A DNA stretch of 36,226 bases from Mycoemilia scoparia. Its lineage: Eukaryota; Kickxellomycota; Kickxellomycetes; Kickxellales; Kickxellaceae. The notes under the pieces are model-generated. The model ran no database searches and was not told the origin of the DNA. It was given only the letters and a program-made list of their open reading frames with translations. The stretch is taken from positions 1-36,226 of the forward strand of contig JANBPU010000163.1 in the NCBI GenBank assembly GCA_027575805.1. The letters run 5' to 3'. Shown here piece by piece: positions 7,117 to 35,300 of the stretch. The position numbers were made by a program, and so were the translations under genes. How positions within the stretch are numbered: position 1 is the first letter of the stretch; the number at the start of each line of letters is the position of its first letter.

Positions 7117-10100
7117 TTATGAAGCCGCAACAAATGAAGTTTGCTGTTGTTGTTGAGGTTGTTGAGGTTCTTTGTTTAGCGGCTGGCTTTTATGTGTATA
7201 ATTATGAATTGGCAAATTGCTGCCAACATTACCATGAATAGCACTGTTTTCGCTGCTATCATTACTATTATTATTGATACCGCCATCACTTTCAGGGTGA
7301 GATGGTAACATGGCCAGGTTTCGAGAGATGTAGTTTTCTGTTTTTTTGGTCTCATTGGTTAGCATTGCCAAAGGCTCTGGTTTAAATGAAAGCTGGTGTT
7401 CTTCTTGGATAGTGGTTGTAGAATAAAACAATGGTGGAGATGATGAAGCGGTGGTGGTACTTGAAGATGTCATAGCAGCGGCAGCAAGTAATGGCTTTGG
7501 CTCTGGCATTGTTGGGGTTGAAAGTGTCATTGCTGATAACCGAAGCATTGGAGAAGTCAATGCAGATGATGGCTGATGATAATGACCATGGTTATTGCTG
7601 TGTTCGCCATTACCACCATATCCTCCGGATTGATGGCCTATCAAAATATCAAGGTTGCTCGGTGCCCTGGATCTTGGTCTAGGCCTGCTAATTTTTTTAG
7701 ATCCATGACCAAGATTATCATACTTGATTCCTTTGTTGCGTGCTTGGCCAGCCCATTGGCACAAATCTTGGTACCCATTGACTTGGCTACGCAAACCATC
7801 GCCAAATGCCTGTCGACTTAGACCCAAAAACAAGTATGGTCTGGATTTTGCCAACATACTTATAGGGTGATTGTTTGGGAGTATATTATTAGCCATTTTA
7901 ACCACTAGTTCGCGAATGCTTGGTGCAGTATCAACATACAAGGGGTTGCTGTTGGAATTTATTTGCAATTCACCGTTTTTACCAGCGCCAGAATATTGGT
8001 ACTGGGGATTGATATAGGAGCCTGTTGCCGATGTGCCGCCCTCTGTAACAGTGATACGCCATTTGACAGAAAATGAGACATATGTGTCTTTGCTCAGCTT
8101 GACGGAGTATGGCGAATCGACTGAACAATCGGACAAATCAACAGGAAGCAGTGACTCAAATCGCAAACGCAACCAGCCCCCACAAGCAAAAATGTAACGA
8201 TCACATACAATTCCAGGAGGCAATGCCCATTGTGGGAAATCAGCAGTAGCCAAAACTAGTCTTCCTCCATTATTATTGCTATTATTATTGTGAACATTAG
8301 ATGAAGATGCTGTTGACGATGATATCCGTTTCCATTCATTATTACCACCACTGTTATCTCCAGAATTAACAACCAAAACAGAGCCCCATTCTTGGACATA
8401 CAGCATACCCACTTTGCAGGAGATGTTGTGTAGAGAGCGTGGTGGCATGCTTTGTATATCAACTCGCATGGAAGCATAGCAAGCACTGGTCACTGATCCT
8501 TCTGTTGGAAGGTATCCGCGGAATTCGGGGCTATGTGGTGGACAAAGGGCTCTTCTCCACTCTCTGGATACGACTGGAACTCCCAAAGGGGACTTTCCGA
8601 GGTTCATAGAGCCGCTGGTGTTTGTGTTGGGTGTATTCATAGCTGAGGCCAGAAGCAGGCATGGAAGGTGATACGATGAATGAGTGCACTGGATCGGAGC
8701 ACAACAGCGAACTGTAGCGCCTAATCTTCCACACATACCGCAATTGCTGGACGATACTTGTTGCAGTGCAGCACTGATATCTGTGAACTGGGTGTACGAC
8801 AGCTGCTGTTTCTGCTGCTGTCCTTGAAGGGACGATACACTCCTTGGTCCCCATGACCAAGCCACACACTCGACATGTGCCCATTGTGTTGTATTATTCG
8901 GCAATTCAAAGGGAAGCAGGCGCCCAAGAGCGTATGGTCCTTTGGCGTTGCTGTCTCCACATAGTCCACAGAGTGCGCACATTCTGGTGAGTTTGAATAG
9001 CTTGTCTGCACTGTTTCTGTCGGCTGTAGGTGATTTGGGCAAAGCGAAGCGTTTTTCAAGCTCAGGAATGCTATAGGCAATAGCGGGATTCTCGAATCGA
9101 ACATCAGAGTGGGTAAGACATAATAACAGACCTGCCATTTCAGCATCCGAAGTACTTGGAGATCTGGCAGCCGGTGGTGGATGTGGCGCAGAACCACTCG
9201 ATAGCTGGGCAGGCCAAGTTGTCGAACGGGTGGTCTTTGGTCGGTTGATAACATGATCCGTATCCGCAGTATCAAGGCTATCTGGATCCTTTTTTATTTT
9301 GATCTTACCGTCCTTTCTTAGACAGACAGGAACAATAGTAGAGGGCCATTGTTCATCTCCACCCCGACATAAAGAGCAAGCATATGGTGCATCCTCATCA
9401 TCGATCAGGCTATCATAAACAGATGCAGTGATTTTGCTGTCACAAGTGACGTGAACCCAACATGAACAGCCATCACAACAAACCATTGGGGAAGCATTTT
9501 CGTCATCAGAATAGGTGTGTAAACACAGTGGGCAGATCTCAGCCTGGTTAATGGCATCAGAACAATCGCCACACACTTGGAAATCAAACTCCCACCGAAC
9601 TTTGATATTAGTCTTTGTATAATGTGACGCGCCTTTATGACCGGAATTGGACGAGTTCTTGTGCGAATTGTGGTGATGGTGGCTTGATGAATAGGATGTT
9701 GTGGAAGCTGATGAAAGAGATGCTTTTCTTTGGTTTCGAGAATTTGGTGACATTTTTTCAATAATTTCATTAATTGTCGACCCACACTCAATACACAAGA
9801 GACAAGCATCACATACCCAGCGCTGATATTTTTGGATATTTTCTGCGATATCTTTTTGCCTACTACAAGTGGCATGTATATTCTGTCCACATTCATCGCA
9901 CTCAAGAAGACTAGGTGCTGGATCGAGCTGATGGCAAGCTTGGCAAGATGAGCATGTGGGACACGAAAAGTCATTGATTGAAATCTCCGCAGTAAGACCA
10001 ACACAGAAGGGATGGTAGTATTCAGAGCATGATTTACATAACAAAAGATCGTTTCCACCAGAGCAGCATAGCGAACAAAGCACGAGATGTTGCTCATTGT

Positions 10101-11625
10101 TGTTCAGACCAAGGTATAATGGTCTATGCAGAGTTTGTAGTATTTCTGGTGTACAACGCAAAAGTTCTGGATGTTTAACAATGGGTTGCTGAAATGGTGG
10201 TAATGAGTCTTTAGACCCATCACCTGATCTCTTAATAATACGTTGCTCATTCCATTGTTGGAGTCCATTCTGTAACCGTTCTTCAAAAGTAAGTTGCTGA
10301 AGTGCCGATGGACAATCATTGGAGCTGATCTTCTTGACAGCCTTCTTGAATGTTTCCAAGATCTCCAAGGTTTCATCATCAACTTCATGATCGGAGGCTG
10401 TTGATGCTCTACGGCCAGATTTGAGGGGCTGCTGTGGTTGCTTAGAATTGGCAGTCGACATCTTACGTTTGCGACTCCCCTTACGTCCAACTCCTCTGGT
10501 TCTTGAGGAACTCCTTCCACTTCTGCCACTCGATTTCTCGGGAATGCTACCACTATTACCATCAGTCTTGTGTGGATTATAATTACCATGATGACCTCTA
10601 TTTACAGCAGCTGAAATCGCGTCGGCAGCAACCGCAGCTGCCTTTCTCTGACGAACATATGATCCAGACAAATTAACTGTCTCTGGGGACAGGCCTCTGA
10701 TGGAAGATTTCGAATACCCATGTTTATCGTATTTGCTTTCACTCTCAACAAAGTCACTACTAATATTAGTATTATTATTATTATTATGATCCAAATTATC
10801 TGATGATCCTGACGTTACAGAGCTGTCTGAGCTGCCGCTTTTACTACTACTGCTTTCATTATCACTACCATCATTATGGTGATCTCCATGGTTTTTAGCA
10901 CTATTACTAATAGTAGTGGACTTGGATTCGGAAGCATTGCGTGATCTACGTTCTCGTTGCCATGCAGAGATCAATTCACTCCGTAACAACGCGATAACCG
11001 GCTCAATGACTTGATCTGACTTATTGAAGTGAATACCATCCTTTTCCATAAGTCGTTCACCAAGTAGCCTTTGTGGATCATCTTTAGTAAGTCGGACTCT
11101 ACATGCTGTCCATCCATTAACCGCCACGCGACTTTCTGAGGATTTTGTTGTAGTGGCTGGAGCCGATCCTCGCCTACTGATATTATTGGTTGATCCATTT
11201 TCGTCCTCAACTGCCATTTCGTCAAATTTGCCTTCATTCCCACCAACACTATTTTTATTGCTATTTGAAAGACTTTCGCGACGAGACAAACTGCGTTGAG
11301 CCTTAACTTGAGCTCTGGTCATTTTGCAAACCGATGTAGCCCAAGCCGATGGAGTTTCATATTCGCTTCCCATATGCTGTTCGCCAATAGGCCTGATAAA
11401 GTCAGGAGGCAAATGAGTCCAGTCAGGTATTAAGGTACCATAGTTTGTGACTCTGGCTATATAATGCTGGTTATATGTCAGGATCGACCCTTCGCGCAGT
11501 AGTCCACATTGCACCAAATGTAATATGGAAATTTTGCCATTCGCGGGAGGAACGAAATTCGAAGCATCGGTTAAAAAGGCAGGGCTATTATCGTCTTTTT
11601 TTGAAGATGATGATGATGATGACAT
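7117..11625 (-). CDS. RAMA-PHD-ePHD-FYRN/FYRC protein, SET-less trithorax/MLL-like
   Basis: A 1502-residue nuclear chromatin protein in one exon. ATG 11625 is the first Met after an upstream in-frame stop. Order of domains: Ser run (2-8); RAMA domain (about 33-180), with ILHLVQCGLLREGSILTY, an ARVTNYGTLI hairpin, the ETPSAWATSV signature and a NGWTACRV segment after an insertion; a basic disordered region (225-410); a zinc cluster (517-753) in MLL1 layout. Cross-brace Cys/His are at 517, 520, 530, 533, 538, 541, 555, 558; then 561-608; then CIECGST, a W..DF..CGDC stretch (678-688) and CPLCLHTYSDDE...CWVHVTC (698-728), very like MLL1 PHD3. An extended PHD spans about 883-1031 (CALCGLCGD, GRLLPF, CGMCGRLGATVRCC, LCPPH). 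An FYRN-like stretch (about 1068-1150) and an FYRC-like stretch (about 1170-1290, ending FLGLSRQAFGDGLRS) follow, then a low-complexity Gln-rich tail. There is no bromodomain and no SET. Inferred role: a reader/scaffold, possibly linked to 6mA and H3K4 methylation. Confidence 0.85.
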   Translation of the reverse strand: MSSSSSSSKKDDNSPAFLTDASNFVPPANGKISILHLVQCGLLREGSILTYNQHYIARVTNYGTLIPDWTHLPPDFIRPIGEQHMGSEYETPSAWATSVCKMTRAQVKAQRSLSRRESLSNSNKNSVGGNEGKFDEMAVEDENGSTNNISRRGSAPATTTKSSESRVAVNGWTACRVRLTKDDPQRLLGERLMEKDGIHFNKSDQVIEPVIALLRSELISAWQRERRSRNASESKSTTISNSAKNHGDHHNDGSDNESSSSKSGSSDSSVTSGSSDNLDHNNNNNTNISSDFVESESKYDKHGYSKSSIRGLSPETVNLSGSYVRQRKAAAVAADAISAAVNRGHHGNYNPHKTDGNSGSIPEKSSGRSGRSSSRTRGVGRKGSRKRKMSTANSKQPQQPLKSGRRASTASDHEVDDETLEILETFKKAVKKISSNDCPSALQQLTFEERLQNGLQQWNEQRIIKRSGDGSKDSLPPFQQPIVKHPELLRCTPEILQTLHRPLYLGLNNNEQHLVLCSLCCSGGNDLLLCKSCSEYYHPFCVGLTAEISINDFSCPTCSSCQACHQLDPAPSLLECDECGQNIHATCSRQKDIAENIQKYQRWVCDACLLCIECGSTINEIIEKMSPNSRNQRKASLSSASTTSYSSSHHHHNSHKNSSNSGHKGASHYTKTNIKVRWEFDFQVCGDCSDAINQAEICPLCLHTYSDDENASPMVCCDGCSCWVHVTCDSKITASVYDSLIDDEDAPYACSLCRGGDEQWPSTIVPVCLRKDGKIKIKKDPDSLDTADTDHVINRPKTTRSTTWPAQLSSGSAPHPPPAARSPSTSDAEMAGLLLCLTHSDVRFENPAIAYSIPELEKRFALPKSPTADRNSADKLFKLTRMCALCGLCGDSNAKGPYALGRLLPFELPNNTTQWAHVECVAWSWGPRSVSSLQGQQQKQQLSYTQFTDISAALQQVSSSNCGMCGRLGATVRCCAPIQCTHSSYHLPCLLLASAMNTPNTNTSGSMNLGKSPLGVPVVSREWRRALCPPHSPEFRGYLPTEGSVTSACYASMRVDIQSMPPRSLHNISCKVGMLYVQEWGSVLVVNSGDNSGGNNEWKRISSSTASSSNVHNNNSNNNGGRLVLATADFPQWALPPGIVCDRYIFACGGWLRLRFESLLPVDLSDCSVDSPYSVKLSKDTYVSFSVKWRITVTEGGTSATGSYINPQYQYSGAGKNGELQINSNSNPLYVDTAPSIRELVVKMANNILPNNHPISMLAKSRPYLFLGLSRQAFGDGLRSQVNGYQDLCQWAGQARNKGIKYDNLGHGSKKISRPRPRSRAPSNLDILIGHQSGGYGGNGEHSNNHGHYHQPSSALTSPMLRLSAMTLSTPTMPEPKPLLAAAAMTSSSTTTASSSPPLFYSTTTIQEEHQLSFKPEPLAMLTNETKKTENYISRNLAMLPSHPESDGGINNNSNDSSENSAIHGNVGSNLPIHNYTHKSQPLNKEPQQPQQQQQTSFVAAS

Positions 11626-13912: not shown

Positions 13913-16900
13913 CTAAAGGTTCATCAAAACGTCGAACGATCCAGTTCCACCAACAAATGGCTGACCAACCACAACTCTAGCACTAGGATTGTTCAGATTA
14001 TCATAGTCGCCTCTAAGAACCGCATCAGTCAAGAACTTGCATGTGGTTTCGAAACTCATCTTGGCAAAAGGACTGACATTGCTCTGGATACCTGTTCTGT
14101 TAAATGGCTTGTAGCCGCCCTCAAAGGTCATGTAATCAGCAACCAAGCCAATGTGACGGTTATCAACACCAATACCATAGGCATCGAACACATTGAACAC
14201 CTCCCGTTGGATACTGGCACGAGCGGCCTCAACACCATAGGTCAAGAGCATGCCACCGATGTCATTGGTCCGCAATCTTTCCAAATCGGTCCATGGCTCA
14301 AGTTTGGTGGTGTTGTCCTTTTCGTTTGTAAGTGGGAGCAGGGCTCTTTCCCAAATGCTGTGAAGACTAGATCCTTCAGTCTGCAAACATGTCTCGGTGT
14401 CTTTTTCGGAGGCCTTGGCTTTGACCAGACATCTGTCAATTCCTGGTGTCTCACGCACAACTGTCATCTTGGCAACTGTTTCGGCAATGTTGACCATGAG
14501 AATCTTGGGTGTCTTGGCTGGGAACTCAAGAATGATCTCGCACCAGCTTCCCTTATCAGTGTCGCCAGACTTACGGCTAGGCTTGCGTTCAGGTTGGAAT
14601 GTGTAGCCAGAAACATGGGTAAAGCGGTCGATTATATCAGCTTCGCGGACATTGATATTCTTAAGACCAGTGTTGTCTTCAACTTCACTGTCACTATCGG
14701 TGTGCGAGTTCTTGTTACCTTTCGATGATGCAGCAGCAGCAGCAGCATCCAAGGCCTTGAGCTCATCGCCAAGTTCTTCAAGAGTAGCAGCGGCGTTTTC
14801 GTTTTCATTATCAGACTCTTCATCATCATAGGTGGCCTTCTGTCTGCGGCGAGAGTTGACTTTAGAGTCAGTAGCGTCTCCATCAACGTTATCATCGTCT
14901 TCAACCTCGTCGTCATCGTCATCTACATCATGCTGGCGGCCTGCTGAAGACTTCTTGGTGCCATCATCCTCACCGTCATCACCATTGGCAGCAGAGCTCT
15001 TCTTTGACAAGGGAACGCCAATATCAGGCATATCAAATTCGCCTTCACCTTCTTCCCCACCTGCCGTCGTCGATTTCTTGTAGGACTTCTTCAAGTCTTT
15101 GGCAATGCTACGCTCCATATTGGCCAAGAATTGGTTAGACAATGCATCTTCAATATCCTTGCGCTTAAGATTGTACTCAGCCTCAAGCTCAGTCATTGGG
15201 AACAGCTGTATCTTGATACGGAACTGTCTGGTTCTTCCAATTGCATCACCACTACCACCTGTTCTTCCACCCGAGAATAGCTTGCCACCACGGTGAGCAG
15301 ATTGACTAACCAGTTTCTCATATACCTCGATGTAGTCAACAATATCTGACATTCTGACTTTAGATAGTGACTGGGCAATGATCTTGGCCTGTTCCTTACC
15401 AATGGATGACAACAGGGGCAAAATCATACTGGGAGTCTTGGGTGTCATTGAAGCAGTCATGACAATTTCACGCAGACGGGGAATACCGAGAGTAACGTTA
15501 GCAGCACCGTGACCAGCCAAGTGGAAAGTGTTGAGTGTCATTTGAGTAGATGGCTCACCAATAGACTGGGCAGCCAACAAGCCAACAACTTCGCCCGGCT
15601 CGACGAGCGATTTCATGTAGTTGAGCAATTGAAGAGTCATAAAGTTCTTGGAGCTGCATTCCTTGACAACTTTGAGTGGTGGTGTTTGAGCAAGTCTGGT
15701 AAGCTGTTGACCCAAAGCGGTAGGCATTTTGGCATAGTCATTATCAATCTCAGTATCTTTGTCAGCCTTGGATGGAGCATCAGCAGATTTATCTTTACTA
15801 GATGCTAGTACCAACTTATCAGGATTACCACGGATATATTCATCAAGTTCTCTATAAAACTTGTCACTAACAGAGCCAAGATATCTGGATGGATTGTAAA
15901 TCGACAATGCGGGATCGTACTTGTTCAACTTCTTGCCTGACTTCTTGGCCACCTTCTTGGAATATGATGAAGCCACTCCATCATCCAACACGTGAGCCGC
16001 ACTACGAGGTCTCAACTTATCACGCAGGGCCCGGTAGTTAGCTGCGGCAAAGTCAAATTTTTTCAAATACTTTTGTTTACCAACATCCAATGCATCTTCA
16101 CCATAATGGAACTGTACAATTGATCCATCAGAATCACGAACCGAATAATCATAGTGGACTCTCAATCCTTCCAAATGTTTAATCAAGCAACGCTGCAGAT
16201 AACCGGAGTTGGCCGTCTTGACAGCCGTATCGATAAGACCTTCACGACCAGCCATACAATGGAAATAAAATTCCTGGGGATGCAAACCAGTCAAGAATCT
16301 GTCTGCAATAAATCCACCAGCACGGGCTGATGAATCAAATGGTACAAACGATGGTAGAGATTTTCCAGACACCATGATGGGGACACGACGGCCTTCCAAA
16401 CTCTGTTGACTCAAACAGCACGAAATTTGCGAGAAATTGACGTTACTTCCCTTGGCTCCAGATGATGTCATTACCAAGAATCTGTTCTTGGGGAATCCGA
16501 TCAACAAGTTTCCGGGCAATGTGGCTTTCAGCAACTTGTCTGCTACATTACTTTTGGTGGCATCACTCATCAACATATCAAGCATAGCCAACTTGTTATC
16601 GTGTCGTAAAACTTCCTCCATACGTTTGCGGTACTCGTTAGCTAACCCAGGATCATTATATCCAACCTTTTCAGCATGTTCCTTGAGGCCAATATATTCA
16701 TATGCAACTTCTGTGCCAAGTCCCTTAGCGGCATCAATAATTTTGCGTCTAACTTTATCGCCTTCAGGAGTAAGTCTAAGATCATCCATACGACACGAGA
16801 ATCCTGCCAACTGGAAGAATTTGATCAGCAATCTTGAAATAATTGTCAGCATCCGGCCAGCATGTTGTGGAGTGTATAGTTCATAGATAGCGTGAACTAG

Positions 16901-19627
16901 GCCATATCCAGAGGCACCAAGCTGACTCTTGTCCAAAACACCAGTCAACAACTCACCATCCATAACCAAGACATGTTCTTCCTCTTTAGAATTGATACCC
17001 CAGTATTTTCCGGGGACTTTACATTGTCCTCTAAAGTTCATTGGCTGGTATCCGTATGTCAAATTGAGTAACACAGTAGTGACTAGCTGTTTGCCCGTCC
17101 ACATGGGGCGGGGTTTAATAATGGCCGGTGGCACAATCATGATCTTGCCTTCTGGTAACTGGGGTTCATCTTCAGGACGAATTGCACCATACAACAGTTG
17201 CATATACTCTTCTCTAGTAAAGAATGTGTCACGCTTAGCCAACAACACACCAGCATCTATGGAGTCCATAATCAAGCCGCGAAGGGGACTTCCATCAGTG
17301 GGTTTGAGGTACTGGTAATCGGTGGATGCAATCATCATGGCTTCGGTACGGGCAGTTTCGGATTGTGGGAAATGCATGTTCATCTCGTCACCATCGAAAT
17401 CGGCGTTATATGTGTTACAGTTGGCATAGTGCATGCGGATTGTGCGTTCACCAGGCAAAACCTTGACACGGTGGGCCATAATGGAAGGTTTGTGAAGGGT
17501 TGGTTGACGATTAAGAAGGACATAATCACCATCACGCAAATGTCTGAATACCTTTTTGTTTACAACATTAGAGCGATCAATAAAGAGATTGCCCAACTTG
17601 GTCGATGAGGATCGACCAGATCTGACATTGGTCTTGTCCTGGGGAGTAAGCAGTTGGTTAGCAAGGGCAACACGAGACTCATAACTAAGTCGTTCAAGTG
17701 AAGTTAGGGATCCATCTTCATGTTGAACATGGCTGGCACCAGGCCATTGTTTGGATCCATTAATAACCGCTCTTCTCAACTCCTTGACATTGTATGGGGT
17801 TACAGGTTCAGGGTATGTTAGCTTTTCGGCAAACACCGGGGGTACACCAACCTCACAGGTTTCAACATTGGGGTCTGGGGAAATGACAGAACGTGCGGCG
17901 TAGTTAACACGCTTACCCATCATGTGCATGCGGAATAGACCCTGCTTCTTTTCAAGCAATTGGCGGATGCCGGGTGGAGGAGCTTCGCCACGAGAACCGA
18001 GGGTGGGGTTCTTGGAGCTGTCAAAGAGGTTGTTTACTTCTTGTTGAAGACTGATCCAGCTGTTGATGATACGAGCAAATATAACATCACTGCTCAGGCC
18101 ACTCTCAGGGGAGGATTGGCCTTTCGATACAGCCTTAGCAATGGATTCACCAGTATTGGCGTTGTCAACAGTTTCCTTGCCACCATGGACCAAATCACGA
18201 AGGTATACACAGGTCTTTAGGATCTTGCCCAAAAAGACGTTTTGGGAATTTTCCATAACCTCATCGTTCATGATCGAGGGTGGACGGTACCTGGTGGGGG
18301 GAATTGGTAACGTTTCGATGAAGAACATATCAGCCAGCTGTTGGCTGGACCGCTGGCCACGAATTAGTCTGTTAAGCTGGGCTCTGGGAGTTCCTTTCTT
18401 GGCATTGTTCTGGATATCCTCAAGCGTCTTGAAAGTAACCAAAACGTCAGGATCCTTCTGACCAAACAAAAGCTGAACCAACATGCTTTCATTGGTAAAG
18501 AGGAGACGCAAGTGATTGCGAATGTGCATAGGAGACAAGAACTCGGGCACATCCTTTAGGTCAGACTTAGAGGAGGTTTTGGTAGGGATAGCATCAATAC
18601 TATCGTACCTGTCGTCGCCGTCATCTTCGTCCTCCTCGGCAAACTCGTGCTCATCATTATCATTAATGTGCGACGAAAGTCTATTATCTTCTTCAGCCTG
18701 TGTATTATCAAACTTCTTTAGCTTATCTAGATCTTCTGTATCAAGCTTAAGCACATCCGGCTGTTTCATACCAGTAGCATGCATAATGATGCGGTGTTTC
18801 TTGGACAATGGCATTTTGAATATCTTTGTATATTCACCATGTCTCAACTTGGGATTAATGGCTCGACAGTTTGAACAAGCATCCTTTTTGCAACGCTTGA
18901 TAAACCTGTCAATGACACGGCTACGTTCCTGGTTAACTATCATGATCTTGTACTTTTGGCTTTTCTTGCCATCGTTAAGTTCTTGCTGTTGCTGGATCTT
19001 GGTTTCAACAAATTGATGAATTCTGGCAATGAACTCAGAAGAAGTTTCAGGGGCATCAGATTTTCTGGATCCATCGTCATCGATATGTTCAATATCCATA
19101 CCGTCACCATCACCTGTCTCTTCACCAATTTCGTCGTCTGCGATCGAACCCTTCTTTGCACCCTTCTTTGGGCCACTGCTGCCTTTCTTGTTGCCAAGAA
19201 TCATGCTCATATCTGACACTTCCATGGCCTCAGCCAACAATCCATTTTCCAGCAACGTCAACATGGCAATAAACTGGGCTTGTTCAGTCCTTGAAAGCTT
19301 GAATCGATGACAATAAAAGCACATACCCTGAAGTAAATTCAAAACTTCGCCAAACAAAAGGGTGTTGATGACTGGGCAGGGTAGATCGATGTGACCAAAA
19401 TGGCCTGGACATGAAAAGTGGTCCAACGAACAGGTCGCACACAAATGCTGTTTGCTAAATGGCCCTAAAGCTGGATCGTAGAGACCGCCCTTGGTGGGGT
19501 TGCCGAGGTTGTCAAGGAGTTGTGGGTTTACGATTTGTTTGACTGACATAGCTTTGATTTCAGAGGGGGTGTACAGCGTGAATGAAACGCCCGTGATACG
19601 GGAATTTACGGGTTTTGCGATGTTCAT
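13913..19627 (-). CDS. RPA190: RNA polymerase I largest subunit (A190)
   Basis: A 1904-residue homologue of yeast Rpa190 (1664) and human POLR1A, the catalytic subunit of nucleolar RNA polymerase I that transcribes 35S rRNA. It is in one exon. The N-terminus has the clamp zinc site CATCSLDHFSCPGHFGH (residues 63-79), CFYC (103-106) and CSNC (251-254). The RMHMMGKRVNYAARSVISPD segment near 566-585 and LLNRQPTLHKPSIM near 704-717 are universal in large subunits. NADFDGDEM (741-749) holds the three catalytic Mg-binding aspartates. The trigger loop TLNTFHLAGHG (about 1362-1372) follows SIGEPSTQM. An acidic, low-complexity insertion (about 1517-1646) lies in the jaw region, the usual site of a variable Pol I insertion but long here. 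Shorter acidic loops lie at about 165-190 and 310-345. The C-terminal part (FEGGYKPFNRTGI, SPFAKMSFETT) is well conserved. Confidence 0.98.
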   Translation of the reverse strand: MNIAKPVNSRITGVSFTLYTPSEIKAMSVKQIVNPQLLDNLGNPTKGGLYDPALGPFSKQHLCATCSLDHFSCPGHFGHIDLPCPVINTLLFGEVLNLLQGMCFYCHRFKLSRTEQAQFIAMLTLLENGLLAEAMEVSDMSMILGNKKGSSGPKKGAKKGSIADDEIGEETGDGDGMDIEHIDDDGSRKSDAPETSSEFIARIHQFVETKIQQQQELNDGKKSQKYKIMIVNQERSRVIDRFIKRCKKDACSNCRAINPKLRHGEYTKIFKMPLSKKHRIIMHATGMKQPDVLKLDTEDLDKLKKFDNTQAEEDNRLSSHINDNDEHEFAEEDEDDGDDRYDSIDAIPTKTSSKSDLKDVPEFLSPMHIRNHLRLLFTNESMLVQLLFGQKDPDVLVTFKTLEDIQNNAKKGTPRAQLNRLIRGQRSSQQLADMFFIETLPIPPTRYRPPSIMNDEVMENSQNVFLGKILKTCVYLRDLVHGGKETVDNANTGESIAKAVSKGQSSPESGLSSDVIFARIINSWISLQQEVNNLFDSSKNPTLGSRGEAPPPGIRQLLEKKQGLFRMHMMGKRVNYAARSVISPDPNVETCEVGVPPVFAEKLTYPEPVTPYNVKELRRAVINGSKQWPGASHVQHEDGSLTSLERLSYESRVALANQLLTPQDKTNVRSGRSSSTKLGNLFIDRSNVVNKKVFRHLRDGDYVLLNRQPTLHKPSIMAHRVKVLPGERTIRMHYANCNTYNADFDGDEMNMHFPQSETARTEAMMIASTDYQYLKPTDGSPLRGLIMDSIDAGVLLAKRDTFFTREEYMQLLYGAIRPEDEPQLPEGKIMIVPPAIIKPRPMWTGKQLVTTVLLNLTYGYQPMNFRGQCKVPGKYWGINSKEEEHVLVMDGELLTGVLDKSQLGASGYGLVHAIYELYTPQHAGRMLTIISRLLIKFFQLAGFSCRMDDLRLTPEGDKVRRKIIDAAKGLGTEVAYEYIGLKEHAEKVGYNDPGLANEYRKRMEEVLRHDNKLAMLDMLMSDATKSNVADKLLKATLPGNLLIGFPKNRFLVMTSSGAKGSNVNFSQISCCLSQQSLEGRRVPIMVSGKSLPSFVPFDSSARAGGFIADRFLTGLHPQEFYFHCMAGREGLIDTAVKTANSGYLQRCLIKHLEGLRVHYDYSVRDSDGSIVQFHYGEDALDVGKQKYLKKFDFAAANYRALRDKLRPRSAAHVLDDGVASSYSKKVAKKSGKKLNKYDPALSIYNPSRYLGSVSDKFYRELDEYIRGNPDKLVLASSKDKSADAPSKADKDTEIDNDYAKMPTALGQQLTRLAQTPPLKVVKECSSKNFMTLQLLNYMKSLVEPGEVVGLLAAQSIGEPSTQMTLNTFHLAGHGAANVTLGIPRLREIVMTASMTPKTPSMILPLLSSIGKEQAKIIAQSLSKVRMSDIVDYIEVYEKLVSQSAHRGGKLFSGGRTGGSGDAIGRTRQFRIKIQLFPMTELEAEYNLKRKDIEDALSNQFLANMERSIAKDLKKSYKKSTTAGGEEGEGEFDMPDIGVPLSKKSSAANGDDGEDDGTKKSSAGRQHDVDDDDDEVEDDDNVDGDATDSKVNSRRRQKATYDDEESDNENENAAATLEELGDELKALDAAAAAASSKGNKNSHTDSDSEVEDNTGLKNINVREADIIDRFTHVSGYTFQPERKPSRKSGDTDKGSWCEIILEFPAKTPKILMVNIAETVAKMTVVRETPGIDRCLVKAKASEKDTETCLQTEGSSLHSIWERALLPLTNEKDNTTKLEPWTDLERLRTNDIGGMLLTYGVEAARASIQREVFNVFDAYGIGVDNRHIGLVADYMTFEGGYKPFNRTGIQSNVSPFAKMSFETTCKFLTDAVLRGDYDNLNNPSARVVVGQPFVGGTGSFDVLMNL

Positions 19628-21054
19628 CTTTTTGAGCGGCGTCCTCTTCTCCTGCTACCTCTTCCTTGGTGTCTTTTGTGGGATTTTATTATATGTATTT
19701 TATAAGGGAAAAGAGAAGAAAGAAAAGAGTTTTTGCAGAACTTTATACCACTCTATTGGTTATGTATAAATATATAAAGCGATAGAGAGAGAGAGAGATA
19801 GAGAGAGATAGAAGGAATGCCCTTAGTGATTAATCCAATAAGCTCCAATGCAAACTTCCTAGCATAGTCTTTAGATTTTTTTATCCTCTGTGCTATGTTT
19901 GGATTTAAAATTTTATTTGATTATAATCAACGATTTATAATTTTATCAATATGGTCTTGATTCAGAGAGCTCAGATAGGAAAAAAATATTTTGAATCCTT
20001 TGTGGTGAAATTTCATTAGCGATCAATGGAGTGGTAAGTAGGAGTGGGACCTGAGACTTTGCCCCAATCATAGGCCATTTATTCTGCAATTCCAAAAAAC
20101 ACAAATTTCTCTAAGGGCTTGTGAAATCTGACTTTCTATGGGCGTGGGCTCAATTTTGGCAGTCAATGGATACAGAGCCACCAAGTTTGATTTCTGCACC
20201 ATTCAAAAATCTCTTTCGGATTCTGTCCGACTCTTTTCCACACATATGCCCCCCTTCTGCTCCCTCACTCCAGTTGCTCTTTCTCTCCACATTTTGCTCT
20301 CGTTTAGACACCACCTATATTTACTATTTTTTGTGTGTCCGGGTGTTACCTTTTCTTGTTGTTGAAAAAGTTTCGTACCTGAGCTCGCTATCCAAATTTC
20401 TGCAACTATTTTCTCGTCCCTTTAGAGATTCCAAGTAGGATACAGAGGGTTATTATAGCCTATAAAGTGCGCGCAATAAAGGAAACCTTTTGCATCGTCG
20501 TTGAATACAATCCAATCAAGGTTTCACGAAATTACCGCAAGCTCCAAATTAAATATATATTCTGGTTTAGCCGTAATTACTGGTAGCTCGATATATATAA
20601 AGGTTCGTACCAAAAACAGCTTTCGCCTTCCCTTATACATGTGCAATTTCTTGGGCCTATTCCAAATTTATTTGCAGTCACAATCTTTCGCTCCCTCAAA
20701 TTTGGTCTTCAGCTATCCTATTGAGCCCCGCCTATCACAACACTTTGCTCCACAAATATTTTCTATCACATCACGATGCTGATATGCTCCATTCCCAGGC
20801 ACATCAATTCCGACTTTTCTATAACAACGGTGGCGTATATGTCCATTGAGCCAGCCATTTTAATAAATACTCTATAAACATTAGACCCACAGCTAATAAC
20901 ATAGCATTGTTTTACTGTCATTGTTACTAACCTTAAAGCCCTTTTTATTTTGCAGTCAATCAGTGTTGTTAGCCTTTGCTGCTTCTAGCTGATTTGATCC
21001 ACCCGTGTGTCAAGAAGAAAGTCATCCTCTCTTTCAACCTTCGTGAAATACAGA
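19628..21054. promoter_or_regulatory. Divergent intergenic region, RPA190 / LARP1
   Basis: This 1.4-kb region lies between divergent start codons and must carry the RPA190 and LARP1 promoters. On the minus strand an AT-rich TATA-like stretch occurs around 19761-19779, about 140 bases upstream of the RPA190 ATG, next to a GA tract. On the plus strand a pyrimidine-rich acceptor TTTTTATTTTGCAG ends at 20955, about 100 bases before the LARP1 ATG. With the GTAAGT at about 20033 it could bound a 5' UTR intron; this is inferred. Open frames in the region (up to about 105 codons) have no recognisable domain. Confidence 0.45.
19781..19812. repeat. GA-rich microsatellite
   Basis: An interrupted GATAGAGAGA tract about 155 bases upstream of the RPA190 start on the minus strand, where it reads as a CT tract. 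It may lie in the RPA190 promoter or 5' UTR. Confidence 0.85.
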
Positions 21055-25609: not shown

Positions 25610-26375
25610 ATTATTTGTTTATAATCAATTGCTCCAAATAGTAGAGTGACTATAACAACTACTATACTCAGCAGCAATAGCAGTATTGATATACTTTAAT
25701 TCCTCTAAGCTATACTATACATCTACGGCCAGATTATACATCATATATAAATATATTAAAATACTTATTCTGGCGTCTCTATATATTTTTTCCTTTTTTA
25801 TTTCAATCTTTTGTTTGTCTCTCTCTCTCCTCTCTCTCTCTCTCTTACTATTTCATATCGAATTATTTATATAATTGTCTTTCCCTTTTTTATACTTTTT
25901 GTTTCTTTTTTCTTTTTATTATAACCCTAAACCAAAAATACATATAAACTCAAACACCACACTATAACCTTCGAAATAATAATGCTCAATTAAGTTGATC
26001 TCCAATAATTCTTGTAAGCCTCTTTCCCTAGAAAGAACATATAAAAAATTTCAACTTGATTTAATCGCTCTTCAATCAATGTGGCAGGGGATTAAATTAG
26101 ATGTATTTTTATGTGTAGTGTTGATGATGAAGGCAGAGTTTGCTAGCTAGAAAAAAAAGCAGAGCAATAGCTGATTCTCTAATAAAAAAGTATTTAGTAG
26201 GGGGTGGGTATTTGGAACCGTACAAATAGGTTACTACAACTAATAAACCTATACTTTTGTACTTCTGTCTGTCTTTATTAAATTGCTTTATACTTTGAGG
26301 TTTGGCTTTTTTACATTTCTCTTTTTCCGACTGAAATTAAACCAAGTCAGGAAGAAGTATAAAATATAGAATAGT
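25610..26375. promoter_or_regulatory. Intergenic region, LARP1 3' / URB1 5'
   Basis: AT-rich 766-base spacer between two genes in the same orientation. The left part should carry the LARP1 3' UTR and the right part the URB1 promoter. A CT tract lies at 25818-25845. Small open frames (such as 25686-25874) are hydrophobic AT-driven sequence with no domain. Confidence 0.5.
25818..25845. repeat. CT microsatellite
   Basis: A nearly pure TC dinucleotide run of 28 bases, interrupted once by CC, in the LARP1-URB1 spacer. Confidence 0.9.
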
Positions 26376-29300
26376 ATGGTGAGGCATAAGCACAAAAAGT
26401 CCACTCCAAGGACCACCACCACAAGTCTTGGTAAAAGAAAAAGTCAAAAGCATAAAAAAGACGACGAAGGTTCGGATGGAGATGATTATCAGACTATTCC
26501 TACATTTTGGCCTAATAAAAAGCAATTTAGATCAACAAAAAAAGAAGACGATGAGTCTGATGATGATGGTGATGATGATGAAGGAGTAGCAGCAGCAGCA
26601 GCTAATCAACCAGAAACCGATAGCGAAAAAAATGAAGCTGAAGATATCCATAACCACCACCACCACCACCACCAGGCTCAGCCTCCACAAAAACAATATA
26701 CAGAATCGTCTATAGATCCATCAGACATATTCCAAGACCATTACGATATTATCAAGGCACTAAAATCACGAGGAAACGAAGTAATGGTCCAGACGTTTAT
26801 GAAGCTACGCGACCATCTCAAATATCTTCAAACAACATTCCCAAATTCTACGGAGAAAACTGGCGAGACTGTTGCTGTTGACAATGGCAATGATAATAAT
26901 AATAATAACAACAACAAAGAGAAATACAGACGAGTTGTTTATTCTTGGCTTGATAGTTCCAAAGATTTGGAAGATGTTTTTGCAGCATGGGATACTCAGC
27001 ATCAATTCTCAATTGCTCGAGCGGATGTACTGATTCTCGAAGTCATGTCACGAATCCTAAATTTCCTCGATAGACCCCTAGCTACTTCAGCTGGAAATAA
27101 CAGTAGCAGCAGCAGCAGCAATAGAACATTGGGAGTTCAAATTATTCGAGTGATACTTCGGCAATCAATGAAATGTGTTTATCGTGCCCTGTCAAATGTC
27201 AGATCCAGTGCATGCACACAAGCCCTCAGGCTACTAAACACTATGGCGAGGTTTGGGGACGGAGCAATGATTGTCGAGATCAAGGAGAATTTCAAGTGGG
27301 ATCTCAAGTCGCTTAACGCGATATGTAATGACCGTAGTGGGAATGGAAGATGCCGCCAGTTGTGGATCCGTTTTGTGCTGGCGTTTTTTATTGATCACTC
27401 CAGAAATAGTTCCAATACCAACACCAGCAGTGGTGAAGGCGGTGGCGGCCAAGACTTGCAAAAGTCCACTACTACTACTACTATTGGAAGTAGTAGTAAT
27501 GGGAGGCTGAAGACTGAGCTTTTGGAGATCAAGGATTTGGTTTCTGGCTTGTTTAAAGGGCTTTGTAACGATTCGTACCAATTGATTGACGAGCTTTTGG
27601 TTGCGATTTATAACCATATTGTGGTTGATCATAGTATTAGAAGAGTTGTAAAGATCAACCACCTTTTGGCCACCAATATGGTTGTTGGCAATTTGGTCAA
27701 ATGTCTTGAAAAACAAGAGCCCGAGCAAGTTTTTGTTGGCGCTGCCACTTCTACTAATGATAGCAGCAAAGATGGTGGTAAACAGAAGCGGTCCAACATC
27801 TCGACGTTTGCGGTCAGTGGCGTGGTCCACAAGCCTTTGGCTAATGCAAACAGCGATGGCGAACAGGAAGATGCCAGTGAAAGTATCGCTGATCTGGTCC
27901 AAAGATTTATTTTGGCTATAACTACAGTACCTGGGATTGGTCTGTGTTACAAGGATTATGGATTATATCCTGCGCCCAGGTCCTGGTCATCCATGGACAT
28001 TTTTAGCGAAACCTATAACAACAGCCAATCCCAATCCCAACAAGGAGCCGGCGATGGTCAGGACAGCCAAGCTTTATCCAAAGGTTCTATTTCCGAATCT
28101 CCGCCATCAACTGTTCCCGGAAATCCCAATAGCAGCAGCAGCAGCAGCAATTATCTTTGTAACCACGCCTTACTCCGCGTCATGACAAACAATTTCAAAC
28201 CCACCGAAAATAAACGCCAAATGGACATAGTTTTGGCTATCCTAAGACATGTTCCCGAACTGACAGCACCCTACTGGAAATCCCAAACTTGTTCGTTTGA
28301 GCCTCGACTCTCTTTGCCCTACCTGATCAACACATCGCTGGCTATAAAAATCATGAGTCTGCCCCTTCCTATAGCATCTCGACATGACCATCAAGGGCAG
28401 CAGCAGCAGCAGCAGCAGCACAACTATGGCTACTATGCTGATATTCACGAGCACACAAAATCTCCTCCAAGTCTATCAACCCTCATTGAGCATGTTCTTC
28501 CAACCCCACTAAACCAGCTAGTCTTGACCAAAGGAATCCAGCACAAAGAGTCGCCCGCCCTTATTAGATATCGTACATTCCAAATCCTTTCGATCGCGGC
28601 ACGGAAGTTGGATCATGTCCGAAATTGGATATTCTCCCAAGCACAGAAATATCAAACTCAGGGGCAACGGCATCCACGAGGCAGTATTTCTGAACAGTGG
28701 ATTAAATGTTTTTCGAGACTGTTGGGTGTTATTAAAAGGAAATTACCGGAATGGTCGACTGTTGTTGAAGCTTATCAGATTTTACCGTCGCTCAGCCAGC
28801 CCACCACAACCACGAAAAATGACGATGGTAATGATAATGGTGATTGTGACGAAGAAAGCCAGGTCCAAAATTATATGTTCCGTCTTGCTATTCTCCAAGT
28901 AATGACTACTTACCAAACTCATTTTCCCGAATCCGTTGCTGAATATAAATTCGATGTTGGGAAATTGTTGAATGAAGCTTATAGTGGCGGGTTGTTTGAT
29001 ACTGCCCTGACGACAACAACTAAGCAGACCGAGAGTGGCGGGGTTTCGGTGCTTGGTAGGTTCAAGAGACTTTGTCTTTTATCTATTCTCAAGTTACTCG
29101 AGGTTTCGCCACCAACAATGATCAAATGGCAATCCACAACCATGTCCTCTTCGGAGGGCGGCGGTGGTGGTTCGGTGTCACATACTTTGTTTGGCCAGAT
29201 TTTATTGTTGTATCTGGGAAGCCATGTGCCTCAGATCCAAGAATCTAGTCACAGGGTCGCACTCAATGCTCTAAAATCATTTGGACTATTCTCCTCCACC

Positions 29301-32300
29301 TCCTCAAACAGTCACTTGGCAACAACAACAACGACCCTTGGAATGGGTTTTGGAAATAGTAGTAAAGTGAATGGTGGTGATGATAATGATGATGGCAGCG
29401 AAGTGGATGTTTGGTTACAATCCCTTAAATTTATTTCCCAATCCGTATTATCCACCACAACCACGGATGATAGCAGCAGTAGTAGTAGTGGGAAAGGAGG
29501 AGATCAGCTTGGTTCCCAGTTTTTATTGTCCTTTGAATCTGCGGTTGTAAAGGCCAGTAAATTACCATTCAGATTTTTTGATCGTACTAGCGAATATTAT
29601 GACCACGACCATCTCGGACACAGCCAAGAGCAGCATATCAGTCCGCTGTTATCTGCTGTTGCGGAATCGCTTTTGGCTAAATGGATATCATCAATTGAAA
29701 AGGCAGCCAAAAACACCACCAACCAGCCATCAACAACAACAGCAAATGCTGCTGGTATTGATTATAATGCATTGTTGGCGGTTAATGATATGTACAATGT
29801 TGCTTACATCAACGACGTTCTTATTCGGTTAACCCATCATTATGGTCATCAGATAGTGCCTGTTCTACTAAGATTTCTGGAAATTGCGCCTAAACAAGTC
29901 TTTGCTTCAAGAACCACCACCATCGATAAATCCAGTGGTAGTAGTAGTAGAAGTAGTAATAATACAGGAAAAGGGAATGTTGTTGATACCGAAAGGATCA
30001 TTTGCGAAAGATTTGAAAAGTCTACCTTGCAGATTAAAGCTTATCTACAGAGATTTGTGCCAAGCAATAGCAGCAGTGAAGATGGAGGAGAACTTGTGCT
30101 GTGTTCTAAGGAAAAAACTATACAAGATATCAATTCGATCATACATCCCAAAGACCAACAAAATTGCAAGGGTCTGGCTGTTGATAGTGTTGTTTTGGAA
30201 TTATGGAAGCTGGTGATGTCGGTGCCTGTCAATCAAACTTCTTCAACTATATCCCAAATTACAGAGCAGCTCTTACTATCTATCACCAGTAGCAGCAGCA
30301 GTATCGGGAAGAGTATGGAGCCGTTCTATTATAGTGTTACAATGTTGTGGTTATCAATAGTAGACAGATCCGGCACATCAAATTATTCAGTGTGGAATGA
30401 TTTTGATAACCTTGAAAAATTGATCAACACAACCATAGAATCGCCCAAATTATTGTCGTTGTCGTCGTCGTCGTCGTTGTCTTGTACGTGGTGGATATTC
30501 ATGAATATATTGTGGACCCATTTGACCGTATCCAACAATATTATCGAGATATTCAACTCGCCTAATCATTACAGATTGATCCGAAAGCTGCTGTTGAAAT
30601 ATTCTGGAAATAATGATAACAATTTTGGCGCCAGTGGTGGTGATTCATTGATTTGGACAACAACAATTGTTGCACTTTCTAATTTGAAACTAATCCTATA
30701 TCGGCTACTTAGACACACCAACAGTAACATTGACCAGATGCCATCGAATATCGATGTCGTTGCTGATGAATTTGAAGTATCAATAGTCGCGGTATTTAGC
30801 CTGCTCAAATCCATAATCTCCAACCACCACAACCATCAAAAATCTCTAGGAAACCCTCATCAATTTATGTCCAACAGTTACCAACAACTTAAATACCTGG
30901 TTCATTGTGTTTTATCCGATTTCCAGAACCAAAACGGTGATGGTGATGATGGTGGTGAGTTGATGGATTCAAAATTCTTGAATCTGTATCTACACAACAA
31001 CCAGAGCAAGAAGGCTATACTACTACTACTAAAATCTGGTAGCAACAGTAGGGCTGCTAGAATTTATAATCTGATTGATCATTGCTGGGTGGATTATGCC
31101 AGACATTCTGTTCAAACTTTATTAAACTTGCCCAACTACAACAACAAGCTGGATGAACTTTGGATTTCACATCCTCATCATTCTCGTCTTTACAATCAGG
31201 ATCAATCATCAAATTTGGGAGCGGGGTTGAGGTCGGGTATGACGATTCCTGACGATATTGTGTCTTTGTGGCAAAGATTTTCAGATAGGCTGATTACTGT
31301 ATTTAAGTCTATTCCAGCTCCACAGCCCAAATCTCAATTCTCCTCATCTTCGGACAGCCGCCACGATCATTTGTTGTCGATTTATCATTTAATGTTACCT
31401 GTTTTGCCTATAAATGCAGTCAAGCAGGTGCTGGGTATTATCAAGGGATGGATCAAGGTTGCTTACGATGACCAGCAAGAAGAGGAGAGAGTATTTAATA
31501 TTGAGCCGGTGTGGCTTATTGTATTGCTTGAATCTATGAACAAAATTTCGGCCCATTCAGATGCTAATGATGACCTATTGGACGGAGATCAGATAACAGG
31601 TAGCAGTAAAATTGTTACGAATCTTTTTGGGGATTCTGAGTCTGGGTTTGAGTCTGAGTCAAGCGAAAGTGAAGGCCAAGATGATGAAAACGAAGACAAA
31701 ATCCAAGACGATAGTGATGAGGAAGAAGACGATGACGTTTTGGATTCGAAGATTCAATCCAAAATTTTTGAATCCTGGTTAAACACCAATATCCACCATT
31801 CATCACCTTCATCAATTAGTCGTAGGCAGAGCCTGCAACAAAGCCGTCTCTATGATGTTGCGATTCTTGAACTTTTACGCACAAAATATCGAAAGTATTT
31901 GCAAGTTCCTGTTGACTCTCCTGCTTATGTCCCAAGCCTTGTGTCTAACCTTTTGGCTGGATTTACTAACCAAGATATTAATCCAATAACCTCTTCTTCT
32001 GCTGCTGCTGCTACTACCACTGCTGCTGCTAATGGTGACAAAAGGGTTAAAAAATCTTTGGTAAAGATTGATCAATCTGCAAATATAACTACAATGCTGA
32101 TGGAAATGACGATTGGAATTTTGGAATATCTATCCAAACTCAGCCACAACAACTCTACTAATATGGATGTAGTAGATTCAAAGTTGTCTATACTTTTGCT
32201 GTTGATCAGTATTGACAAGAACATCAGAATTAAGGCAGCATCATGGATTGTCAACCAACAGACCAAAAAGGGCAAACTTTCGTTGTCAATTCTTGTAAAG

Positions 32301-35300
32301 ATTTTAAAGGCGGTCATCGATGTTTGCGCTTCTACTGTTTCAGATAAAGTTGGTTATGGTTTGCTTTGTTGGAATGTCAATGCCATTACCACCGATCCAA
32401 GGACTAGTGATGGCGGGAAGGAGGAGACAGATGTTGTTAGGGATTTGGTTTCTTTGGTTGGTACACAGCTCTTTTCTCTAATGATCGATGGTGACAATAG
32501 TATTCAAGGCTTAGCATCAAGCCTGTATAGCCAACAACAATTTGGTGGTATCGTCGATCTTTCCACAATCCTTCATTTAGTTGGCTTAAATCTTGGTTAT
32601 CAGTCACACGATGATAACGGCGATATGATTCAAAAACTTGTTGCTAGGTCATTGAGGTTTGTACAATCTCTTGAAGCTGAAATCAACGACAAGAACGATG
32701 ATGATAATGATGATGGTATGGAGGTTGAAGATACCGAACAAAATGAGACTGACGTGAATAAGAATGATGTGTACAGAGAAATACAAATGTATGTCCAACT
32801 TTATATATACGCCATCTCGTCAATAATCGATACTACTGTCGTCACCAAGAAGAGCAAAACTAAACACTCGTCAGAATATTTCAATATCCTTGGATCGTGC
32901 TCCAAAATTGTTACATGGATTGCTAACCATCATCATTCCTCTGTTGAAAATCAAACTTTGCTTGAACGTATTTTGGCTACGATAAATTCAATCTATAAGT
33001 TGGCTTACGCCAACCATAATGTTATTATATCCACGGTTGATGATTATGAAGTGGTGGCATCATCGTTCTACAAAACTCTTTCTACCCAGCTATCCAGCCA
33101 AATTGAAAGCCTAGTGGAAAATAATATCTTTATCTCACAAGAATCTTTTGATTCATCCAACGAGCCGTTATCATCCACAAAAGAAAAAGCAACAGCAGTC
33201 ACCACCGCCTTTTCGTCTCTGTTCAACACCATGTTTGTTGAAACTGTCAGCATCCAAGGGCTTTCTACACTACGTCTATCTCAAGATCTGCCCAGCCATG
33301 AAATCGCGGCCACCAACAACATTTCATGGATTGATGTTCTAAAATCCTTGCTCAGTTGTCCAGGATATCTCAAATCTATCTATCATCCAACTTTCCGTAA
33401 TCCGTTGATCGCCCTGACTGCCACATTCTGGAATCTAACCAAATTGCAGCCAGAATCATCGCTAACCTACGACCAAACTGGAAATATACTATCAGTCGAC
33501 CAACTAGAAAGTCTCTTTGTTTCCTATGGCGGCACTCATTCCAAGAGTGACAAGATTTTACTCAAAATAGTTAACGAGTACGAATCTATGACTGGACAAA
33601 GCTTAGCCGGATTGGCATTCGTGTTTGGCCCCAGTGCGGTAAAGACTGTGGTTAAAGCTAGATTTGATCGAGAGCGGTTTGGTATTCAGAGATCAGATAC
33701 CTGTGCACGTGATTTGGTTAATGCTGACAATGCAGGAAGAGGTGTATTATGTATTGATGAGCAAAGGCTGTATGATTCAGTGATGAATTTTTATTCGATG
33801 CCTTTGTCTAAACTTTCCGAAAATGTTGATAATCAAAACAGTGGTAATGGCAAAAATGATAGCACTGGTGATATCGAAAGTTTAATTATTCGTTCATTCA
33901 ACAACTCCAACTCCAGACAATCACCTGATGATGAAGAAGATGAAGAGAACAATGCTAGACTATACGATTTTGACTTCCTACTTCCATGGACACTCCAAAT
34001 ATTCTCATACCTACCGTCGCTAGATCTCCGCTCTCTAATAAACATGGGGATCGGTGGAATCGGCGTGGTCTGCCTATCATCCACCAACGAGTTTTATCGT
34101 AAAGTCGGCTACACTCTAATGGACCACCTCTACCTATCCATAAATTCCTCAAACTTGCGTGAAAAATCCCAACTCTTGTCAGTCCTGGATCCTCTCAAAA
34201 ACGCCATCCCCAACCGTACAGCTACAAACTACCCACGAATCCCATTTGTCACTACCCTGTTCATCACCACCGCTCTAGTAACTACGCTCCGACCTGAACA
34301 AACAATTTACCCATTGATTCAAGGATTTTTACTAAAAAGCCCGGTTTTGGATTTATCGTCGATTCCGCTATTTTATAAAGCACTGTTTTCATCAGCGGGT
34401 CAAGGGTCCAGGCGTGAGCGCAACTACTTGCTTAGATTGGCCGCGGCGTTTGGGTCAGCGGCTTATAGATTGGACTATAGGTTGTATAATCGTAGAAATG
34501 TGACTGATTTGTTGTTGACTATGGTGTCTAGTCCCATTACGGATGTGGCCTCGGCCAAGTCTATTCTGGGGTTCTTGTTTAACCTAACTGCTGGCCCTTC
34601 TGATATCACCAAGAGCTACCATAATAGCGGCGAGGATAACATTGGTGATGACGATGATGGTGATGATGGTTTGTTTGATAGGATTGAAGCTAAACAAACA
34701 CAAATGATTATGAGTTGGATTCATCAGCAGATTTTGTTACAAGTTAGCTCGATGCGCCAGCAATCGGCAAATTACTTGCAAAGCACTTGTCGTACTGCTA
34801 CTCAAAATTATCAGGGTTCGGAAAAGTCTTCTAGTGGTGGTAACAAGAAACACATGCAACAGCGTGGATCGGCTGATTTGCATTTGGATCGGTGGTTAGC
34901 TGATTGTGCGGTATTGTTGGCACTTGTTCGGCTGGTTGCTCGTATAGTCGCTAATTCCCAAACTGCCAAGGAATCACAGCAACAAAAACCAATGTTTAAA
35001 GCTGGCTGGGTTTGTGATAGTAATAACAGCAGCACCGTCCCACATAAATTGGTTTCAACATTGACAATCCTAAAAGACGCACTAGATGCATTCGACCCAT
35101 TGATCATATCCAAAGTATCATTATCATTACCATCATCTATAAACAGTAGCCAAGATATTCGTCAACAGAAACCACCCTCATCTATCAACCACAATAATAA
35201 TTCTGGTGGTGGTGGTGAGCTTTCAGCCAAAAATTCAGTTGTAACCAACCTAGTCTTATCAGTTTCCAGAACTGTTACAGACACAATATCATTGCTTTGG

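Follow-up and report, generated by a model that had tools for sequence, protein, structure and literature searches.

In the animal proteins KMT2A and KMT2B (MLL1 and MLL2), a CXXC domain is placed ahead of a series of PHD fingers. Here, we analyzed a gene of Mycoemilia scoparia (Kickxellomycota, Kickxellales) whose product appears to belong to a trithorax-type family carrying a RAMA domain at this place. The gene lies on contig JANBPU010000163.1, in the window, that is, the whole stretch of 36,226 nucleotides that was analyzed. RAMA is said to have been predicted by Iyer in 2016 to be a sensor of 6-methyladenine (6mA). In the RAMA-containing protein MPND, residues S113, S115 and W135 contact the DNA backbone and each mutant almost loses binding, and another group is cited as reporting 6mA binding by MPND (Yang 2023, PMC9963953, excerpted text). 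In the sections of a 2025 survey considered here (PMC12695648), robust 6mA is reported only in species with the methyltransferase AMT1, where it lies between nucleosomes trimethylated at lysine 4 of histone H3 (H3K4me3). According to the same sections, where the writer subunit p1 lacks a PHD finger, colocalization of 6mA and H3K4me3 'would require intermediate proteins', and the identification of 6mA readers is called key. Kickxellomycota are among the fungi listed as high in 6mA (PMC11258239, excerpted text).

The gene was compared with a family of 32 proteins, comprising the window protein, 18 proteins from initial searches and 13 from a search with a RAMA query. These searches were based on shared short words, and more distant relatives were possibly missed. 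All named relatives came from Coemansia (presumably Kickxellomycota), Martensiomyces or Dispira, the placement of the latter two in Kickxellomycota having been checked. In the database gene models of two Coemansia members (P0012 and P0013), the protein is fused to SMC5, probably because neighboring genes were wrongly joined in the prediction.

The N-terminal domain of the window protein was confirmed as RAMA by profile search and predicted structure. When residues 26-224 were excised, they matched Pfam RAMA (PF18755) with an E value of 3.6e-4 (20.9 bits, below the curated cut-off of 35.2). All 10 excised family members scanned, the window protein among them, were matched (best E 3.4e-7), as opposed to none of five controls (four shuffles and one reversal), and precomputed PF18755 annotation was present on 10 of the 32 members. 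The predicted fold of this region clearly matched RAMA structures only. A preliminary description made from the letters of this DNA had placed RAMA in residues 33-180, and both the domain and its fold were borne out; the hidden Markov model (HMM) match, however, held for the excised piece and neither for the full-length protein, which gave no PF18755 match, nor at the curated cut-off. Two of the motifs that had first suggested the domain are strongly conserved: all 32 members have TPSAWAT, and NGW is lacking only in P0032, a record that starts near the TPSAWAT motif (31/32). In an alignment to MPND, S-P-S falls on T91-P92-S93 and W135 on W172, and the 22-residue spacing between S113 and W135 is consistent with the MPND letters. 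The DNA-contact positions are thus kept as TPS in 32/32 members (T replacing the first S) and as W in 31/32.

Downstream of this domain, the three PHD fingers proposed in the preliminary description were recovered by Pfam (6.6e-11, three stretches), and their top matches in the PDB were the PHD fingers of KMT2C/KMT2D and MLL1 PHD3. In PHD3, alignment to 2kyu placed Y705, M714 and W723 at three of the four cage positions of MLL1; their partners are presumably the H3K4me3 cage residues Y1576, M1585 and W1594. The cage M and W are conserved in 29 of the 32 members, the other three being unmatched by the pattern, and all four cage residues are kept in Dispira. An extended PHD (ePHD) had also been proposed. 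The Pfam scan of the window protein itself gave no ePHD match, but its residues 880-1031 are supported as an ePHD through the Dispira orthologue P0033, which has a Pfam zf-HC5HC2H match (1.4e-8) and aligns with the window protein over this stretch (E 8e-9).

According to Pfam, the two Dispira orthologues (P0033 and P0034, each about 1890 residues) carry RAMA (25-107), PHD, ePHD and SET; they can also be aligned to the window protein along the whole core. The RAMA-query search had matched them without significance (E 0.59 and 7.7), and their RAMA matches were later secured by Pfam and alignment; between the window protein and P0033, the PHD part aligned with E 3e-34 and RAMA with E 7e-12, at an identity of 46% across 76 residues. 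The top match of P0033 PHD3 was MLL1, and its SET domain gave weak matches, first to KMT2A chains and then to KMT2C/D (E 0.016 to 0.067). This SET, present in both orthologues, is divergent, with QHSA in place of the NHSC of KMT2D and LSF (P0033) or LYF (P0034) in place of YDY. Catalysis by it seems doubtful from these motifs, and the C-terminal SET of these KMT2-like proteins is possibly a pseudo-methyltransferase.

Pfam scans of the window protein and of 11 other members from outside Dispira, partial sequences among them, gave no SET match, and the window protein was rejected as a full KMT2 member because SET is missing. A tree covering 27 of the 32 members over 752 columns was rooted with Dispira. 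All members other than the window protein formed a clade in it (support 100), and the window protein lay outside. The simplest reading of these sequences is that RAMA joined a KMT2-type protein before Dispira and the other branch split, and that SET was then lost on the latter. A CXXC finger requires eight cysteines; residues 1-515 of the window protein hold only five, which indicates that CXXC is absent from it. The architecture suggested at the outset, an MLL1/2-type protein with RAMA where CXXC would stand, holds, and the Dispira orthologues, which have kept SET, strengthen this reading.

The preliminary description had also made its proposal depend on an adenine methyltransferase of MT-A70 type in the host, and such genes were found. 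The host assembly (21.2 Mb, 466 contigs) gave three MT-A70 matches belonging to two genes. The first gene, at a locus containing a DPPW-coding stretch, scored, in one exon, 119.9 bits to PDB 7f4r, which we take to be the MT-A70 protein MTA1 of Tetrahymena, against 55.8 to METTL3; the second scored higher to MTA9 (46.3 bits) than to METTL14 (31.7). By these scores, the host carries AMT1-like and MTA9-like genes, a putative 6mA writer pair. A cytosine-5 DNA methylase match was also observed in a 1637-codon frame on another host contig (G000:C433, L022); systems for 5-methylcytosine and 6mA may therefore coexist in this host. A second RAMA-like place in the host genome (L021, E 0.04) lies in a short frame that lacks the PSAWA motif, and it appears to have been matched by chance. 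Searches of the host for CXXC and CpG_bind_C gave no match, but neither did those of control genomes, so absence is not established.

Our computations show the architecture, a RAMA fold by prediction, conservation of the contact residues, the presence of writer genes and the lack of SET. From them we infer a mode of DNA and histone binding, a genomic location, partners and a preference toward 6mA. In our proposal, to which we give about even credence, the protein is a SET-less adaptor of trithorax/KMT2 type acting at active genes. Its N-terminal RAMA would grip the DNA backbone at the place used by CXXC in animal MLL1/2, and PHD3 would read the H3K4-methylated H3 tail, so that together they would hold the protein to DNA next to the H3K4me3 nucleosomes of active genes and promoters. 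Such regions in Kickxellomycota are expected to be rich in 6mA, methylated by AMT1 with MTA9, and we would expect RAMA to favor 6mA DNA in them, or at any rate to accept it. Because the protein has no SET domain, it would most likely be a catalytically empty scaffold recruiting Set1/COMPASS or transcription factors to these sites. A Set1-type gene with N-SET (L010) is present in the host.

Some observations speak against the RAMA assignment and others against this proposal. As to the assignment, an HMM built from MPND and CcrM alone gave the window protein 3.7 bits, compared with 8.6 for the best of 1200 shuffles, a value exceeded by five of the 32 members (top, Dispira, 14.8), and a search of the PDB sequences with the RAMA family profile retrieved no RAMA chain up to an E value of 10. 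As to the proposal, one of the four PHD3 cage positions is changed in the window protein (N710), and the first position is Y in 24 members and H in 5. The FYRN and FYRC domains named in the preliminary description could not be recovered, with no direct match in the window protein or the tested Kickxellales pieces by Pfam, PDB profile, hhalign or home-made HMMs. Comparison of the family with Dispira over FYR by hhalign gave the expected register with a probability of only 3%; at the matching position, P0033 has FYRN with E 1.3e-4 (21.9 bits, below the 24-bit cut-off), and P0034 has none at E up to 1. Judged by position, a FYRN/FYRC region in the window protein is likely, as a candidate. In addition, the first MT-A70 match (C56) contains internal stops, probably due to an intron. 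Inhibitors of H3K4me3 in Acanthamoeba hardly altered 6mA in the sections of the survey considered (PMC12695648), so that a tight coupling of the two marks need not exist. Finally, MPND RAMA is described as contacting the DNA backbone only; it is reported to bind histones and, at 1.5 uM, plain double-stranded DNA, and 6mA did not alter its binding (PMC9963953, excerpted text).

The last observation leads to the strongest alternative, in which RAMA is a general DNA/histone module indifferent to 6mA, PHD3 alone targets the protein, and coincidence with 6mA is indirect. The conserved RAMA residues, being those of backbone contacts, also fit this explanation, which we place somewhat short of an even chance. 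On the other hand, the RAMA motif is kept throughout a family from a fungal group reported as 6mA-rich (although 13 of the members were found by the RAMA query itself), the host has both writer-like genes, and the other report on MPND points to 6mA binding. Selective reading of 6mA by the window RAMA seems possible, though less likely than not. With the same reserve, these proteins might be dedicated 6mA readers of early-diverging fungi, in which CpG reading by CXXC was exchanged for reading of 6mApT by RAMA, tying AMT1-made 6mA directly to H3K4me3. The SET-bearing form (Dispira type) would then have come first, followed by one that is purely a double reader (the window protein and Kickxellales).

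Decay of a KMT2 remnant might also be considered, in which SET has diverged in Dispira and is gone from the window protein and the Kickxellales proteins scanned, with the rest drifting. The altered Dispira SET motifs would agree with it, as would the position of the 13 SET and two FYR places among the host matches listed, all on contigs other than that of the window. However, the unbroken frame of 1502 codons and the RAMA and PHD residues that stay invariant even between deep branches point to continued selection, and we regard decay as unlikely. Slightly less probable still is a RAMA that shuns 6mA and reads unmethylated DNA, as a functional copy of CXXC at CpG. Its occupation of the CXXC place of MLL1/2 would suit such a role, but a 6mA-averse RAMA would oppose the PHD3 reader, since in AMT1 species 6mA and H3K4me3 mark the same regions (PMC12695648, sections considered). 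An artefact of gene model or assembly joining a RAMA gene to a PHD gene is so improbable that we rejected it; nothing was found in its favor, and it is contradicted by the single open frame and by the orthologues, with TPSAWAT in 31/31 and the PHD3 pattern in 28/31 of the further family proteins.

The positions of the features are shown in Table 1. The coordinates originally given for the gene were correct; it lies on the minus strand, with an ATG start codon at 11625 and the stop codon at 7117-7119.

Table 1 Features of the RAMA-PHD gene in the window
Feature	Residues	Position	Strand	Comment
Whole coding frame		7117..11625	-	Single unbroken open reading frame, 1502 aa + stop
RAMA domain	30-222	10960..11538	-	Contains low-confidence spacer, about aa 140-168
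TPSAWAT motif	91-97	11335..11355	-	T91, S93 at MPND DNA-contact positions S113, S115
NGW motif	170-172	11110..11118	-	W172 at MPND DNA-contact position W135
PHD finger 1	516-560	9946..10080	-	Pfam and PDB matches
PHD finger 2	561-608	9802..9945	-	Pfam and PDB matches
MLL1-type PHD3 with upstream cysteine-rich stretch	676-754	9364..9600	-	Alignment to 2kyu, residue counts
Putative ePHD	880-1031	8533..8988	-	Via Dispira P0033 Pfam match and alignment
Candidate FYRN/FYRC-like region	1073-1285	7771..8409	-	Position and Dispira P0033 orthologue only

The gene is surrounded by housekeeping-looking genes: Ctf4/WDHD1, UcrQ, the RNA polymerase largest subunit, La and LARP1 pieces, and Npa1/URB1. Two of them are very long unbroken frames, at 13913-19654 (RNA polymerase largest subunit, 1913 aa) and 26370-35804 (Npa1/URB1 type, 3144 aa). 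Elsewhere in the host, two genuine FYRN+FYRC genes were identified, on contigs C81 (L004) and C46 (L005), with no other Pfam match in the scanned frames; the FYR part of the former resembles TBRG1 (2wzo, 111 bits). Among the matches listed, the 13 SET and two FYR places have no contig in common.

Among the paper titles listed by our literature searches, none dealt with fungal RAMA combined with PHD or KMT2, and an earlier listing, for example in Iyer 2016, is possible. The individual domains are known; what is new is their combination and its fit to the open question of 6mA readers. Compared with KMT2A/KMT2B and Drosophila trithorax, the window protein shares the order of PHD1-3 and ePHD, to which Dispira adds SET and a weak FYRN (in one of two proteins), but it has RAMA instead of CXXC, no bromodomain or SET match, and no detected FYR. 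Drosophila Lpt/Cmi is likewise a SET-less half of a KMT2 protein with PHD fingers; unlike the window protein, it is of KMT2C/D type and is not known to carry RAMA. MPND (RAMA-MPN) has the same RAMA fold, the PSAWAT motif and the DNA-contact serine and tryptophan, whereas the window protein has no Pfam match to MPN and its RAMA is joined to histone readers. It also has no methylase match, which distinguishes it from the adenine methyltransferase CcrM with its C-terminal RAMA. The ichthyosporean p1 with PHD similarly joins a DNA partner of adenine methylation to a histone reader, but it is a subunit of the writer complex, and the passage describing it names neither RAMA nor trithorax (PMC12695648). 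The window protein appears to have both parts needed by an intermediate between 6mA and H3K4me3, in a group reported to be 6mA-rich, and this protein from the early-diverging and little-known Kickxellomycota provides a testable candidate for connecting 6mA to the histone marks of active genes.
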